From a virus: a stretch of 36,834 nucleotides of DNA. The position numbers and the translations under genes were made by a program. The notes below the pieces were generated by a model. It saw only the letters and a program-made list of their open reading frames with translations. It made no database searches and was not told the DNA's origin. The stretch lies in the IMG/VR virus record IMGVR_UViG_3300027782_000008, positions 1 through 36,834 of that record, one strand, 5' to 3'. Shown here in pieces: positions 1,692 through 31,800 of the stretch (position 1 is the first letter of the stretch; every line of letters begins with the position of its first letter).

Positions 1692-1697
1692 GATTCA

Positions 1698-1726
1698 ATT
1701 ATCCACCGATAAGGGATATTTTACAA
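1698..1726 (-). promoter_or_regulatory. Leftward switch promoter
   Basis: Read on the minus strand: TTGTAA, a 17-bp spacer, then GATAAT, followed within a few bases by the Cro-like start codon at 1691. The spacer and the -10 are covered by an operator-like site at 1701-1717. The layout and much of the sequence match the rightward early promoter at 3400-3427, which supports both calls. Confidence 0.72.
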
Positions 1727-1773
1727 CCATTAATTGTGGATTCGATAAAGAATATAATCCACTGATGGAATAT
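1701..1773. promoter_or_regulatory. Operator cluster 1 (three 17-bp sites)
   Basis: Three related 17-bp sites. 1701-1717 is ATCCACCGATAAGGGAT, with ATCC/GGAT ends. 1725-1741 is AACCATTAATTGTGGAT. 1757-1773 is ATCCACTGATGGAATAT. The first two start 24 bp apart, and the first lies in the leftward promoter. The second lies in the repressor promoter and the third covers the repressor start codon. GTGGATT (1736-1742) and AATCCAC (1756-1762) also form a perfect inverted pair. The sites resemble one another and those at 3385-3424 and are the likely binding sites of repressor and Cro-like protein. Confidence 0.65.
1721..1749 (+). promoter_or_regulatory. Repressor promoter (PRM-like)
   Basis: TTACAA (1721-1726), a 17-bp spacer and GATAAA (1744-1749) read rightward. 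The -35 hexamer is the same six bases, read on the other strand, as the -35 of the leftward promoter. Predicted transcription would begin near 1756, only about nine bases before the ATG at 1765, so the message would be nearly leaderless, as with lambda cI from PRM. Confidence 0.5.
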
Positions 1774-2439
1774 TTAGATTATGCAAAGCGATTAAAAAGC
1801 CTACAGGTAGCCCAAGGCATAAAAACACAGATAGAACTATCTGCGTGGATGGGGTTTTCTAAGTCTATTGTTAGCGCTTGGATGCGTGGAGAGAAAATAC
1901 CATCAATGGATACGGCTTTAAAAATAGCTGATATGTTTGGTGTTTGTGTTGAATGGCTATTAACTGGCAAAGGATTAAAACACCCAGATGATACTCCCGT
2001 TCTACAAAACTATATCAACGTCACCGACTTAACACCTGCGCAAATACAAGAAACAAACGATTTTATTGCTTTCAAAAGATCGCAAAATTTACCCAAAATA
2101 ACCGAAAATAACACAAATAAAGCCTTGACTACGCCAGCTAAAAATGTGGGGGGGGGGGTAAACTTGGCTATAGACCGCAGGGTGACTGATCGTCTGATAA
2201 AAGAAGGGAACCTTGAGCGTCGACGTTTTTTAGATGAACTGGCAACAGAACAGGATCGTTGTGTTATGGAAAGACACGCAGAAGAAGTCGAAGCCAATAA
2301 GCGTTATGTCGAAATGGTAAAAACAAAATGTAGGGACAACGAGTGTTACTGCGAGCCACCTTGCGAAACCGCTGCCGATCACACTAAAAACATGAGCTTT
2401 AATGACGTATTGGCTTACGCCAGGCGAAAGGATGATTGA
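1765..2439 (+). CDS. Phage repressor (HTH, no peptidase domain), poly-G tract inside
   Basis: A 224-residue protein; ATG at 1765 is chosen because the HTH begins right after it. The frame is open back to 1663, but that stretch is operator DNA. Residues 8-60 are an XRE-type helix-turn-helix (TQIELSAWMGFSKSIVSAWM) ending in EWLLTGKG, typical of CI-like phage repressors. The rest is charged and predicted helical, with a Cys-rich stretch (CRDNECYCEPPC). I see no Ser-Lys LexA/S24 self-cleavage domain, so induction would not use RecA-stimulated autoproteolysis. An 11-G run at 2148-2158 encodes VGGGV near residue 128; a one-base change in its length stops translation at or shortly after it. Predicted to bind the operators at 1701-1773 and 3385-3424. 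Confidence 0.82.
   Translation: MEYLDYAKRLKSLQVAQGIKTQIELSAWMGFSKSIVSAWMRGEKIPSMDTALKIADMFGVCVEWLLTGKGLKHPDDTPVLQNYINVTDLTPAQIQETNDFIAFKRSQNLPKITENNTNKALTTPAKNVGGGVNLAIDRRVTDRLIKEGNLERRRFLDELATEQDRCVMERHAEEVEANKRYVEMVKTKCRDNECYCEPPCETAADHTKNMSFNDVLAYARRKDD
2148..2158. repeat. Eleven-G homopolymer inside the repressor gene
   Basis: Eleven consecutive Gs lie in the repressor reading frame just after the DNA-binding half. With ten Gs the next codon becomes TAA. With twelve the new frame reaches TGA within about ten codons. Runs of this length are mutable by slipped-strand replication and are also error-prone in sequencing. Confidence 0.9.
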
Positions 2440-2441
2440 TA

Positions 2442-2666
2442 ATGAGTACAATAAGCTTTGATACTGACCGACTGGTTGAAGATTTAAAGTCTTCTGGACT
2501 GCCTCATGACCAAGCACGTGCTATTGTGCGCGGACTGGTAGACGCACAAACAGAATTAGCAACTAAAATGGATTTAGTGCAACTAGAGCAGCGCCTAACT
2601 ATAAAGCTTGGCAGTATGATGGTTGTGGCTATTGGTATAGTGGCGGTGTTGGTTAAGCTTATGTAA
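2442..2666 (+). CDS. DUF1640-like coiled-coil protein with C-terminal membrane anchor (copy 1)
   Basis: A 74-residue protein. ATG at 2442 is preferred over an in-frame TTG at 2436 because AAAGGA lies about nine bases upstream. The N-terminus STISFDTDRLVEDLKSSGLP followed by an ARAIVRGLVDAQ helix matches the DUF1640 family. A short coiled-coil (KMDLVQLEQRLTIK) leads to a C-terminal hydrophobic segment (MMVVAIGIVAVLVKL). The gene begins two bases after the repressor stop, so it would be expressed in lysogens. A paralogue lies at 26266-26541. Function is unknown; a host-envelope or exclusion role is only inferred from location. Confidence 0.75.
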   Translation: MSTISFDTDRLVEDLKSSGLPHDQARAIVRGLVDAQTELATKMDLVQLEQRLTIKLGSMMVVAIGIVAVLVKLM

Positions 2667-10549: not shown

Positions 10550-10875
10550 CAATGCCTAGAGTTATTCGAATGAGTCAAGCACCTGCCTATCTTGGCATGT
10601 CCATTCCACATTTTAATGCTCATGTCAGGCCGTATTTAGTTGAAGTTAGAGATGCACATAGCATGATTAGTTTTGACCGGCTTGACTTGGATGCTTGGTG
10701 GGAACAACATAAACAGGCTAACGGAAAGCCAGCAAAGGAGAATCAATCATGGCAAAAAGAACCCCAGGTCTACGAAAGCAAGGCGAAATCTGGCACGTTG
10801 ACAAAGTTATCGGCGGTGTCAACATACGACAAAGCACGGGAGAGAAGGAGCTTGATCAAGCAGAACGCTATTTAG
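10546..10875 (+). CDS. Excisionase-like HTH protein
   Basis: A 109-residue protein. Residues 5-55 are an AlpA/excisionase-type winged helix (IRMSQAPAYLGMSIPHFNAHVRPYL, then ISFDRLDLDAWWEQH). It lies immediately upstream of and overlaps the integrase by 127 bases, the usual place for a recombination directionality factor. The C-terminal 50 residues are basic and unstructured and coincide with the overlap. The likely role is bending attP DNA for excision and possibly repressing int. Confidence 0.72.
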   Translation: MTMPRVIRMSQAPAYLGMSIPHFNAHVRPYLVEVRDAHSMISFDRLDLDAWWEQHKQANGKPAKENQSWQKEPQVYESKAKSGTLTKLSAVSTYDKARERRSLIKQNAI

Positions 10876-11813
10876 CAAGGCTTATTGAGCAATATAGAAA
10901 AGTAAAAGTATATGGTGAAAAGATTGACCGACCCTTTGAGATAGCGGCAGCTCGCTACCTTGATGAGTACGGTCACAAAACATCACTGGATAGAGACATC
11001 ATTAGTTTAGATAAAATCATGCCTTACATTGGGCATATTGAATTATCTAAGATTCACTCCGGTGTGTTTGATGTCTTTATCAGTGATCGAAAGAAAGCTG
11101 GGATAAGTGCAGGCACATTAAATCGTGATATGGCCTCTGTCAGGCGAGTGCTAAAACTGTCAGCAGCAAAGTGGCGTGATGAGAATGGGAAGCCTTGGCT
11201 TGATAATGTACCCATGATGCCTTTAGTTGATGGCATTGAGAGAAAACCAAGACCGATCAGTTGGACTGAGCAGGAACTATTATTAAAAGAGCTGCCAGGC
11301 TACTTGTCAGAAATGGTGTTATTTGCACTCAATACCGGCTTGAGAGATCAAGAAATCTGTGGCATGAAATGGGCCGATGAATGTAAGGTCAGCGGTCTTG
11401 ATACGACCGTCTTCATTATTGATGAAACCCGAACCAAGAATAACCGAGAACGTATTGTGCCATTAAACTCTGTTGCTCGATCAATCGTTGCAGCAAAGCG
11501 TAATAATAAATCTGAATACGTTTTTGACTTCGAAGGTAGAAAGCTGGACAGAATGACAAATCGTGCTTGGCGTAAAGCGAGAGAAACAATTGGCCTTACT
11601 TTGGTTAGGGTGCATGATCTTCGCCATACGTTTGGAATGAGATTAAGAGCGGCTGGTGTTGGTTTTGAGGATCGACAGGATTTGTTAGGGCATCATGCTG
11701 GAAGAATCACTACGCATTATTCGAAAGTTGAGATTGCTCGATTAATAGATTGTGTTGAATTGCTTTGTGAAGCCAGAAAACCAGAATTAACATTAATCAG
11801 GAGAGTTATATGA
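10749..11813 (+). CDS. int: Tyrosine-family phage integrase
   Basis: A 354-residue tyrosine recombinase with AAGGAG seven bases before ATG. The catalytic set is visible: R199 (NTGLRDQEICGMKW), K230 (TRTK), H289 and R292 (HDLRHTFG), H315 (LGHH) and the nucleophile Y324 (THYSK). A basic N-terminal arm-binding segment (residues 1-55) is followed by a SAM-like core-binding domain. It would integrate the phage at the tRNA-Lys-derived attP about 400 bp downstream. The excisionase-like gene overlaps its start and a small Cys-rich gene overlaps its stop. Confidence 0.93.
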   Translation: MAKRTPGLRKQGEIWHVDKVIGGVNIRQSTGEKELDQAERYLARLIEQYRKVKVYGEKIDRPFEIAAARYLDEYGHKTSLDRDIISLDKIMPYIGHIELSKIHSGVFDVFISDRKKAGISAGTLNRDMASVRRVLKLSAAKWRDENGKPWLDNVPMMPLVDGIERKPRPISWTEQELLLKELPGYLSEMVLFALNTGLRDQEICGMKWADECKVSGLDTTVFIIDETRTKNNRERIVPLNSVARSIVAAKRNNKSEYVFDFEGRKLDRMTNRAWRKARETIGLTLVRVHDLRHTFGMRLRAAGVGFEDRQDLLGHHAGRITTHYSKVEIARLIDCVELLCEARKPELTLIRRVI

Positions 11814-30014: not shown

Positions 30015-31280
30015 TTATATTCCTAAAATCTTTAATGATTGATATGGTCGAATGACTGGAAACTCGTATGCTATCGGGTAGCCTGATGCGTCGTTTTGGT
30101 GGTCGAACCCACTCTTTTTATCAGGCTCGCCATTTTTATCGTATGCTTGTTGCTCAAAATTACTGGCCATCGTTTGGCATAATTTAGAGTTAATAAATAA
30201 CTTCCCATCTTCAAACTGCTTATTAACAGATAGTATTCGGTCTTTAACGAATGGATTAGTTGACTTAACCCTAACCTCAAACCCTGCTTGTCTCAGTAGT
30301 GCAATATCTGACACGCTGGCATTGACTGATTTTCTTGATCCACCAGATGCGTCTGGGTAGATAATTATTCGATTGTTTGGCCATCGTTCTTTAATGACAT
30401 TTATCATTGATGGCGTATCAAATACATCATGTAGTTCTGACACACCATGCCAGCCAGTAGATCGCTGAACATAGATGCTTGCAGCCATTTTTCCGACGTT
30501 AAAATCAAGGCCGATAAACAAAGACTCTTTACCCTGTATTGTTTCTAAAGATTCGCACCGCTGACGATTGTATGACCGATAAACTGTGCCGGTAGTTAAA
30601 TTACAGAACTTGCCATCAATGTAAGCGTCAATTAATTCGGCTGGATAGGTATCAATTAATGATTGTATATATCCGTCAGGTAGGTTTTTAGCGTTAGCTC
30701 TTGTCGATGCTTGGATTAATCCATAAAGACTTGATAGGTTTGGCTTGTTGGCTAACTCTGCAACAAATAACCTATGCGTCTCCCTAAATCCCTCGGGTGT
30801 AGTCGTTACATCGGCGCCATTAGTTGCACCTTGCCAACGCAGACGAGCAATGATCTTTCGCCATGCTTGCTGTGCTTTCTTTGGGTCCAATACATCAAGC
30901 TCATCAACGAGAGCATGGCCAATTTTGAATCCAACAATAGTTTGCGGTCGCTCCATACTTCGACAAATCGTTGTTCCTCGATATTTACGCCCACTATAAA
31001 AATGTACTTCCTTGTTTGATTCCATAATGTCAACGCTCAAGCCTAAACCATTGGCGACTTCTTCAATCGTTGGAAAGAAAATATCGCGTATATGCGGATA
31101 AGTGGGTGCAAAATAACCTTGATTAATACCCGGATTGCTCCATATTCTTGCGCACATTGCAGAAGAACCAGCCCACGTCTTTCCGCTTCCATAACCACCA
31201 ACATAGGCTTTAAATTTATGTGGCAATTGAATAAACTCTGATTGCTGAATATTGAGAGCCGGTGAATTACTCGCTTGCAT
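30015..31280 (-). CDS. terL: Terminase large subunit
   Basis: A 421-residue protein from ATG at 31280 (AGGG upstream); the frame also opens at TTG 31286. ATPase: Walker A GGYGSGKT at about 28-35 and Walker B HALVDELD. Nuclease: acidic residues in FIGLDFNVGKM and IIIYPDASGG. It overlaps TerS by 14 bases. Circular permutation of the assembly is compatible with headful packaging, though the packaging type cannot be read directly. Confidence 0.92.
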   Translation of the reverse strand: MQASNSPALNIQQSEFIQLPHKFKAYVGGYGSGKTWAGSSAMCARIWSNPGINQGYFAPTYPHIRDIFFPTIEEVANGLGLSVDIMESNKEVHFYSGRKYRGTTICRSMERPQTIVGFKIGHALVDELDVLDPKKAQQAWRKIIARLRWQGATNGADVTTTPEGFRETHRLFVAELANKPNLSSLYGLIQASTRANAKNLPDGYIQSLIDTYPAELIDAYIDGKFCNLTTGTVYRSYNRQRCESLETIQGKESLFIGLDFNVGKMAASIYVQRSTGWHGVSELHDVFDTPSMINVIKERWPNNRIIIYPDASGGSRKSVNASVSDIALLRQAGFEVRVKSTNPFVKDRILSVNKQFEDGKLFINSKLCQTMASNFEQQAYDKNGEPDKKSGFDHQNDASGYPIAYEFPVIRPYQSLKILGI

Positions 31281-31800
31281 CGACAACCCTAAACACTATT
31301 TGTTTTGGTTCTGGCGGCTCATCATCGTTCTTATTTATATCTTCGATGGTCTTTTTATTGGCATTAAGCAGATTCATACCGATAGTGCTTGAATCATTTG
31401 CCAGCTTTGTTAAGATCGCTATGTTTTGAAGCGCATCTGTTGACTGGCTTGGATTAACCTCGTCTATCTTATCAACCTGGTCATTTGCCATTCCTGATAA
31501 TCTATGCGCGGTCATTGCTCCATACTTTCCAGCACCTGCTAAATGACTTGATATTGCTTTTAATTCATCTGCTAAGGTTCGCGCACTGATTTGCGAACTA
31601 ATAGGCAATGATGACAGCGCTTCTTCTGCTTTAACTAATTGATTAGCAACTTTTTTTATTTCTTTAGTTTGCGAACCAAACCTTTTTCTTATTGCTGTCT
31701 CTGAGATGCCAAATTCACGAGCTAAAGAACGCCCTTTCTCCCCTGCAAGTAAGCGTAATCTTATTGCTTCCCACTGTTTTGGGGTGAGTGGTGATGCCAT
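31267..31800 (-). CDS. terS: Terminase small subunit
   Basis: A 177-residue protein. The N-terminal HTH (TPKQWEAIRLRLLAGEKGRSLAREFGISETAIRKRFG) would recognise the packaging site. A central helical oligomerisation region (KVANQLVKAEEALSSLP, then LADELKAISSHLAGAG) precedes an acidic tail (NKNDDEPPEP). It overlaps TerL, as usual for the pair. Confidence 0.83.
   Translation of the reverse strand: MASPLTPKQWEAIRLRLLAGEKGRSLAREFGISETAIRKRFGSQTKEIKKVANQLVKAEEALSSLPISSQISARTLADELKAISSHLAGAGKYGAMTAHRLSGMANDQVDKIDEVNPSQSTDALQNIAILTKLANDSSTIGMNLLNANKKTIEDINKNDDEPPEPKQIVFRVVDASE

Follow-up and report, generated by a model that had tools for sequence, protein, structure and literature searches.

The analyzed window, an IMG/VR virus record, is 36,834 bases long and carries a direct terminal repeat of 127 bases. 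It contains a CI-type repressor gene accompanied by a divergent Cro-like gene, operator-like repeats and an integrase gene (Table 1). The N-terminal part of the repressor matches the PF07022 profile at 40.4 bits (cut-off 22; E-value 3.7e-10). This is the layout of an ordinary temperate immunity region around an unusual gene. An AlphaFold2 model based on a five-sequence alignment (mean pLDDT of 66) has a confident HTH domain, a helix at residues 91-106 and a less certain long helix at residues 138-190. No match to the Peptidase_S24 domain, which characterizes the S24/LexA-type repressors, was found in the window repressor using Pfam and PHROGs. Directly downstream of the repressor is a small gene for a coiled-coil-like protein (CCDC90-like, PHROG 17872; window positions 2442-2663), which also lies beside the tract described below in several relatives. 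Elsewhere in the window, the terminase large subunit (30015-31286) shares about 57% identity with its counterparts in Klebsiella, E. coli and Salmonella phages, though the host looks like a methanotroph.

Table 1. Features of the repressor locus and the integrase gene in the window.
Feature	Position	Strand	Evidence and remarks
Divergent Cro-like HTH gene, 64 aa	1500..1691	-	HTH_3, YdaS-like
Divergent promoter/operator region	1692..1764	.	Direct and inverted repeats
CI-type repressor gene, 224 aa, in frame at 11 Gs	1765..2439	+	ORF from ATG at 1765; PF07022/PF01381; PHROG transcriptional regulator/repressor families
HTH DNA-binding domain, residues 9-71	1789..1977	+	PF07022 (Phage_CI_repr); predicted pLDDT about 90; module exchanged between relatives
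Disordered linker holding the tract, residues 107-137	2083..2175	+	AlphaFold2 pLDDT <50 for residues 107-140
Conserved DNA block TTGAC-N11-RAAATGN directly 5' of the tract	2125..2147	+	Comparison of relatives
G11 tract (candidate slippage site)	2148..2158	+	Codons GTG-GGG-GGG-GGG-GTA; length-polymorphic in relatives
C-terminal half, 93 aa, Cys-rich, long helix	2158..2436	+	Made only with the tract in frame
Tyrosine integrase (temperate lifestyle)	10749..11813	+	PF00589

The Cys-rich C-terminal half of the repressor (EQDRCVMERH...CYCEPPC) has no family match in Pfam, PHROGs, PDB sequences, or phage or plasmid records, and no match in genome contigs or in 81 Methylococcales genomes. A single NCBIfam match (E-value 0.08, far under its cut-off) was dismissed as noise. 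The CYCEPPC domain was seen in viral contigs only, one of which (L048) may carry a diverged form.

The original prediction was that the repressor gene holds, 3' of its HTH domain, the only long G homopolymer of the window. The position of this tract and its count of eleven Gs were confirmed on the window sequence, and every other G run in the 36,834 bases is five or shorter; from the G-to-G frequency of the window itself, 0.0002 runs of at least 11 Gs would be expected by chance. All three Gly codons of the tract are GGG, a codon that makes up 12% (71/588) of the Gly codons in the window's genes. The tract is thus a pure non-triplet repeat within a coding region, and its length sets the reading frame. 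The computed full-length products are 223, 224 and 225 aa for 8, 11 and 14 Gs, respectively. With 10 or 13 Gs translation stops at once (131 or 132 aa), at 10 Gs on the TAA that had been predicted, and with 9 or 12 Gs it stops after ten codons (140 or 141 aa), at 12 Gs on the TGA that had likewise been foreseen. Every out-of-frame product retains the HTH domain and the region of the 91-106 helix.

The 23 bases directly upstream of the tract are kept in relatives while the protein halves on both sides get swapped, and the Leu codon of this block is TTG in every tract-bearing copy that was found without the DNA pattern. A DNA-level role of this block is possible. Two other functions of the site were considered and rejected. 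An internal start downstream of the tract, for which the Gs would act as a Shine-Dalgarno sequence, is not consistent with the in-frame codon after the run, which is GTA or GCT in several lineages. Inspection also spoke against TTGACA as a -35 box, the -10 position being taken up by the tract itself.

Relatives were collected by protein search and then by the DNA pattern TTGAC-N11-RAAATGN-G6. The linker and tract are common to 24 viral contigs and two Methylococcaceae MAG contigs (about 30 related contigs overall); pattern matches in L033 and L052 were due to chance and were left out. The hosts are probably freshwater methanotrophs (Methylococcaceae), an assignment based on the two MAG contigs, and searching 311 Methylococcales genomes for the tract yielded nothing beyond these two known MAGs. 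One MAG contig (L067) has a different backbone, including a PF12236 head-tail connector, a VapE-like protein, a helicase, RecT and an integrase, so the element occurs in more than a single type of phage.

The tract lengths among the relatives are G8, G10, G11, G12, G14 and at least G17, and a length of 2 modulo 3 is the in-frame register throughout. The in-frame alleles are G14 (L005/L007, L016, L023, L032, L037, L039, L044 and L048), G11 (the window, L006, L040, L047 and L050) and G8 (L034 and L046). The out-of-frame alleles are G10 (L004, L041 and L051) and G12 (L013, L022, L049 and L053). Therefore, both frame states occur, with 15 of 22 in frame and 7 of 22, or about a third of the assembled alleles, encoding the short form; L043 was omitted from this count as both of its tails are short. 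The in-frame share exceeds the one third expected by chance (p = 0.0009 if the contigs were independent, which they are not fully), suggesting that the long form is usually favoured. This excess also fits a linker that merely tolerates different numbers of Gly residues, with the out-of-frame lengths being errors. In searches unbiased with respect to the tract, all eight loci with the type 1 C-terminal half have or border a repeat (the L003 and L020 contigs start at it), and of the 11 loci with the type 2 half nine have G tracts, one is on a contig broken at that site and one has an interrupted run.

Several observations on individual contigs can be added. The viral contig L013 and the MAG contig L053 share G12, the out-of-frame state and one short C-terminal type. 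The two tracts found on MAG contigs, those of L051 and L053, are each out of frame. Outside the repressor tract, further runs of G8-G9 occur in L048 (1575 and 1870), L050 (9165) and L043 (4268); no such further run in these phages exceeds nine, except for junk at the L024 contig end.

By comparing close relatives, we found that the tract changes in length faster than its flanks in three pairs. The contigs L041 and L049, which come from different metagenomes, have G10 and G12 with no differences in the 160 bases before and the 110 bases after the tract. The tracts of L004 and L034 are G10 and G8, with one difference in 270 flanking bases. The third pair, L035 (G15) and L048 (G14), has no differences in 164 bases, the G15 length being less certain since the run is only four bases from the contig end. 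The tract length is unchanged between L005 and L007, and the window and L002 are both G11 and identical across 6,868 bases. Homopolymer read or PCR errors could be behind some of the length differences of one base. Over longer divergence, the tract remains pure G across lineages in which the synonymous sites of the C-terminal half are near saturation.

Repeats of another kind occupy the same site in L008, which has the type 1 C-terminal half. This contig lacks the G run; its linker carries (CCAG)10 and then (CCGAG)7, so the frame is kept in only one third of the repeat-number combinations; its relative L020 starts just past the repeat site. The presence of two unrelated non-triplet repeats at one site is hard to explain except through some use of slippage. 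Interruption of the Gly stretch, which the original prediction had named as evidence to the contrary, was found in a single record, L066, where the G run is interrupted (GTGTGGGGGG) and in frame, which makes it a natural locked variant; in its sister L046/L065 the G8 is intact. In L077/L078, an HTH of the same family is fused to Peptidase_S24 (PF00717, 6e-22) without a repeat. The repeat therefore goes with the non-S24 architecture and not with the HTH, though this comparison comes from one lineage.

The type 1 C-terminal half is under purifying selection, with dN/dS of 0.02-0.19 in the measurable pairs, so this half is a working part of the protein. Around the tract, the repressors are mosaic: one conserved linker joins five to six HTH groups and about five C-terminal types (distinguished by eye) in many combinations. 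In the otherwise near-identical phages L004 and L034 (98.5-99.96% over kilobases), the whole operator and HTH cassette is swapped, one breakpoint lying within the cro-like gene and the other close to HTH residue 66. The exchange is a clean immunity-cassette swap of part of cro, the operators and the HTH (L004 4700-5300 and L034 4230-4850). Contigs also tend to end at the repeat, 8 of 31 within 150 bases of it compared to 0.58 expected. In L003/L076 (41.8 kb) and L024/L072 (39.5 kb), the HTH and the C-terminal half lie at opposite contig ends; these are probably circular genomes that were opened within the tract itself. Mixed tract lengths would cause such breaks, which are suggestive as supporting evidence; poor homopolymer reads, or linkers shared by co-occurring mosaic phages, could also produce them.

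Based on these comparisons, we consider it probable that the G run serves as a simple-sequence contingency (phase-variation) site in a mosaic lysogeny repressor of a temperate phage family. Slippage in DNA copying would alter the number of Gs. Lengths of 2 modulo 3 would give the full repressor, composed of the HTH, the flexible linker and the C-terminal half, and other lengths would lead to a stop within about 25 codons past the tract, so that only the HTH and a short helix remain. Rather than turning a gene on and off, the switch would thus alternate a single DNA-binding protein between two heritable forms. Loss of the C-terminal half may weaken multimerization, stability or control of the repressor, and a phage population would then be a heritable mix of tighter and looser lysogens and of fast or clear-type phages. 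The rate of slippage, the coexistence of lengths within one population and the effect on lysogeny are inferred. The proposal of a phase-variable repressor is thus borne out in part. It gains from the conserved, length-polymorphic tract with both frame states in many relatives, from the length differences between identical flanks and from the other non-triplet repeat in the linker of L008, and the comparison of tract lengths among related phages that had been suggested favours it. The claim that slippage switches the repressor off was too strong, as only the C-terminal half is toggled and all out-of-frame alleles encode the whole DNA-binding half. In TP901-1, a CI truncated by 43 residues at its C-terminus is mostly dimeric and retains repression of PL on a plasmid (PMC4892519); the likely effect of truncation is weaker or differently controlled repression.

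Some of the same observations can be accommodated without a heritable switch. Programmed transcriptional slippage or ribosomal frameshifting would produce a fixed mix of long and short repressors at any tract length, making length changes in the DNA nearly neutral. Long G runs are plausible slippage sites, and out-of-frame alleles are tolerated in 7 of 22 cases; however, the in-frame excess and the strong constraint on the C-terminal half suggest that the DNA length matters, the (CCAG)n and (CCGAG)n repeats of L008 are not polymerase-slippage motifs of that kind, and RNA folding around the tract gave no consistent stimulatory structure or hairpin. We regard this mechanism as unlikely. The tract could instead be a fast-mutating flexible joint, a length-tolerant glycine linker whose frame is kept by selection and whose out-of-frame copies are dead ends or errors. 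Its location in a predicted disordered linker, the whole Gly codons by which the lengths 8, 11 and 14 differ and the in-frame excess all suit such a joint, which nevertheless has no need for the infrequent GGG codons or for 4- and 5-base repeats. It also does not account for the persistence of uninterrupted tracts across saturated lineages, for the recurrence of out-of-frame alleles in about a third of cases or for the absence of such a tract from same-HTH relatives with S24 C-terminal domains, and we find it improbable.

There is still less to recommend a recombination joint, in which the linker and the tract serve mainly for swapping of HTH and C-terminal modules and length change is a by-product. 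The many combinations of modules around one conserved linker would be expected of such a joint, but the sole clean recent swap, between L004 and L034, has its breakpoints away from the tract, and we judge this explanation very unlikely. The possibility of a sequencing length error, raised in the original prediction and here extended to assembly artefacts, implies a fixed tract with a misread length. Homopolymers of ten and more bases are error-prone, contigs tend to end at the tract and the L024 end is poly-C/G junk. However, the tract is present consistently in many independent metagenomes, its lengths span 8-14 and beyond instead of scattering by one base around a single value, pairs with identical flanks differ by two, and non-homopolymer repeats occur at the same site in L008. 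Given the lengths of 8, 11 and 14 and the two other repeat units, an artefact is highly improbable as the whole explanation.

If the contingency-site interpretation is true, prophage persistence is partly set by heritable, reversible mutation at one site, lysogens and free phages get a built-in mixture of stabilities that can be tuned by selection, and bet-hedging in lysogeny becomes directly testable. The tract would also draw attention to a C-terminal domain without a name that functions independently of SOS cleavage.

The open-licence PMC papers searched contained no report of a phage CI repressor with repeat-driven phase variation; the accessible part of a paper on the Campylobacter prophage CJIE1 discusses homopolymers of the host, not a tract in the prophage repressor (PMC4004267). 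The closest likeness is to the contingency loci of Neisseria, Haemophilus and Campylobacter, with poly-G/C and tetranucleotide tracts in coding regions. As in those loci, the repeats are non-triplet and inside a gene, both frame states occur among relatives, and the length changes while the flanks stay the same. Repeat-driven phase variation is well established for bacterial surface genes. In bacteria, contingency loci mainly affect surface, LPS and restriction-modification genes of the cell itself, whereas in the present case the repeat sits in the lysogeny repressor gene of the phage itself and toggles no more than the C-terminal half of the protein.

In layout, the window repressor resembles TP901-1 CI and similar non-S24 repressors, which combine an N-terminal HTH with a C-terminal part that is dispensable for DNA binding. 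This likeness is one of layout, and, unlike for the window repressor, no repeat tract is reported for TP901-1 CI in the available part of the source (PMC4892519). Among phages, heritable phage-encoded switching of the kind proposed here has counterparts in Mu gin, P1 cin and P22 gtr, which differ in acting on host range or the host surface and in doing so without repeat slippage. The Mu and P1 systems use inversion and the P22 system uses methylation, and all three are known as phase-variable phage functions. The S24 repressors of the lambda/LexA type likewise consist of two halves joined by a linker, whose separation frees the HTH, and L077/L078 combine such an S24 half with an HTH of the family described here. 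It is conceivable, as a tentative extension, that repeat slippage has replaced SOS autocleavage in these phages, with a repressor having either an S24 half without a repeat or a non-S24 half reached via a slippery repeat. A frameshift would then part the DNA-binding half from its partner by heritable chance, whereas cleavage does so on command, and lysogeny would be switched as a form of bet-hedging that does not depend on DNA damage. In lambda/LexA-type repressors the separation is triggered by RecA; in the window repressor, which lacks S24, it would be genetic and random.
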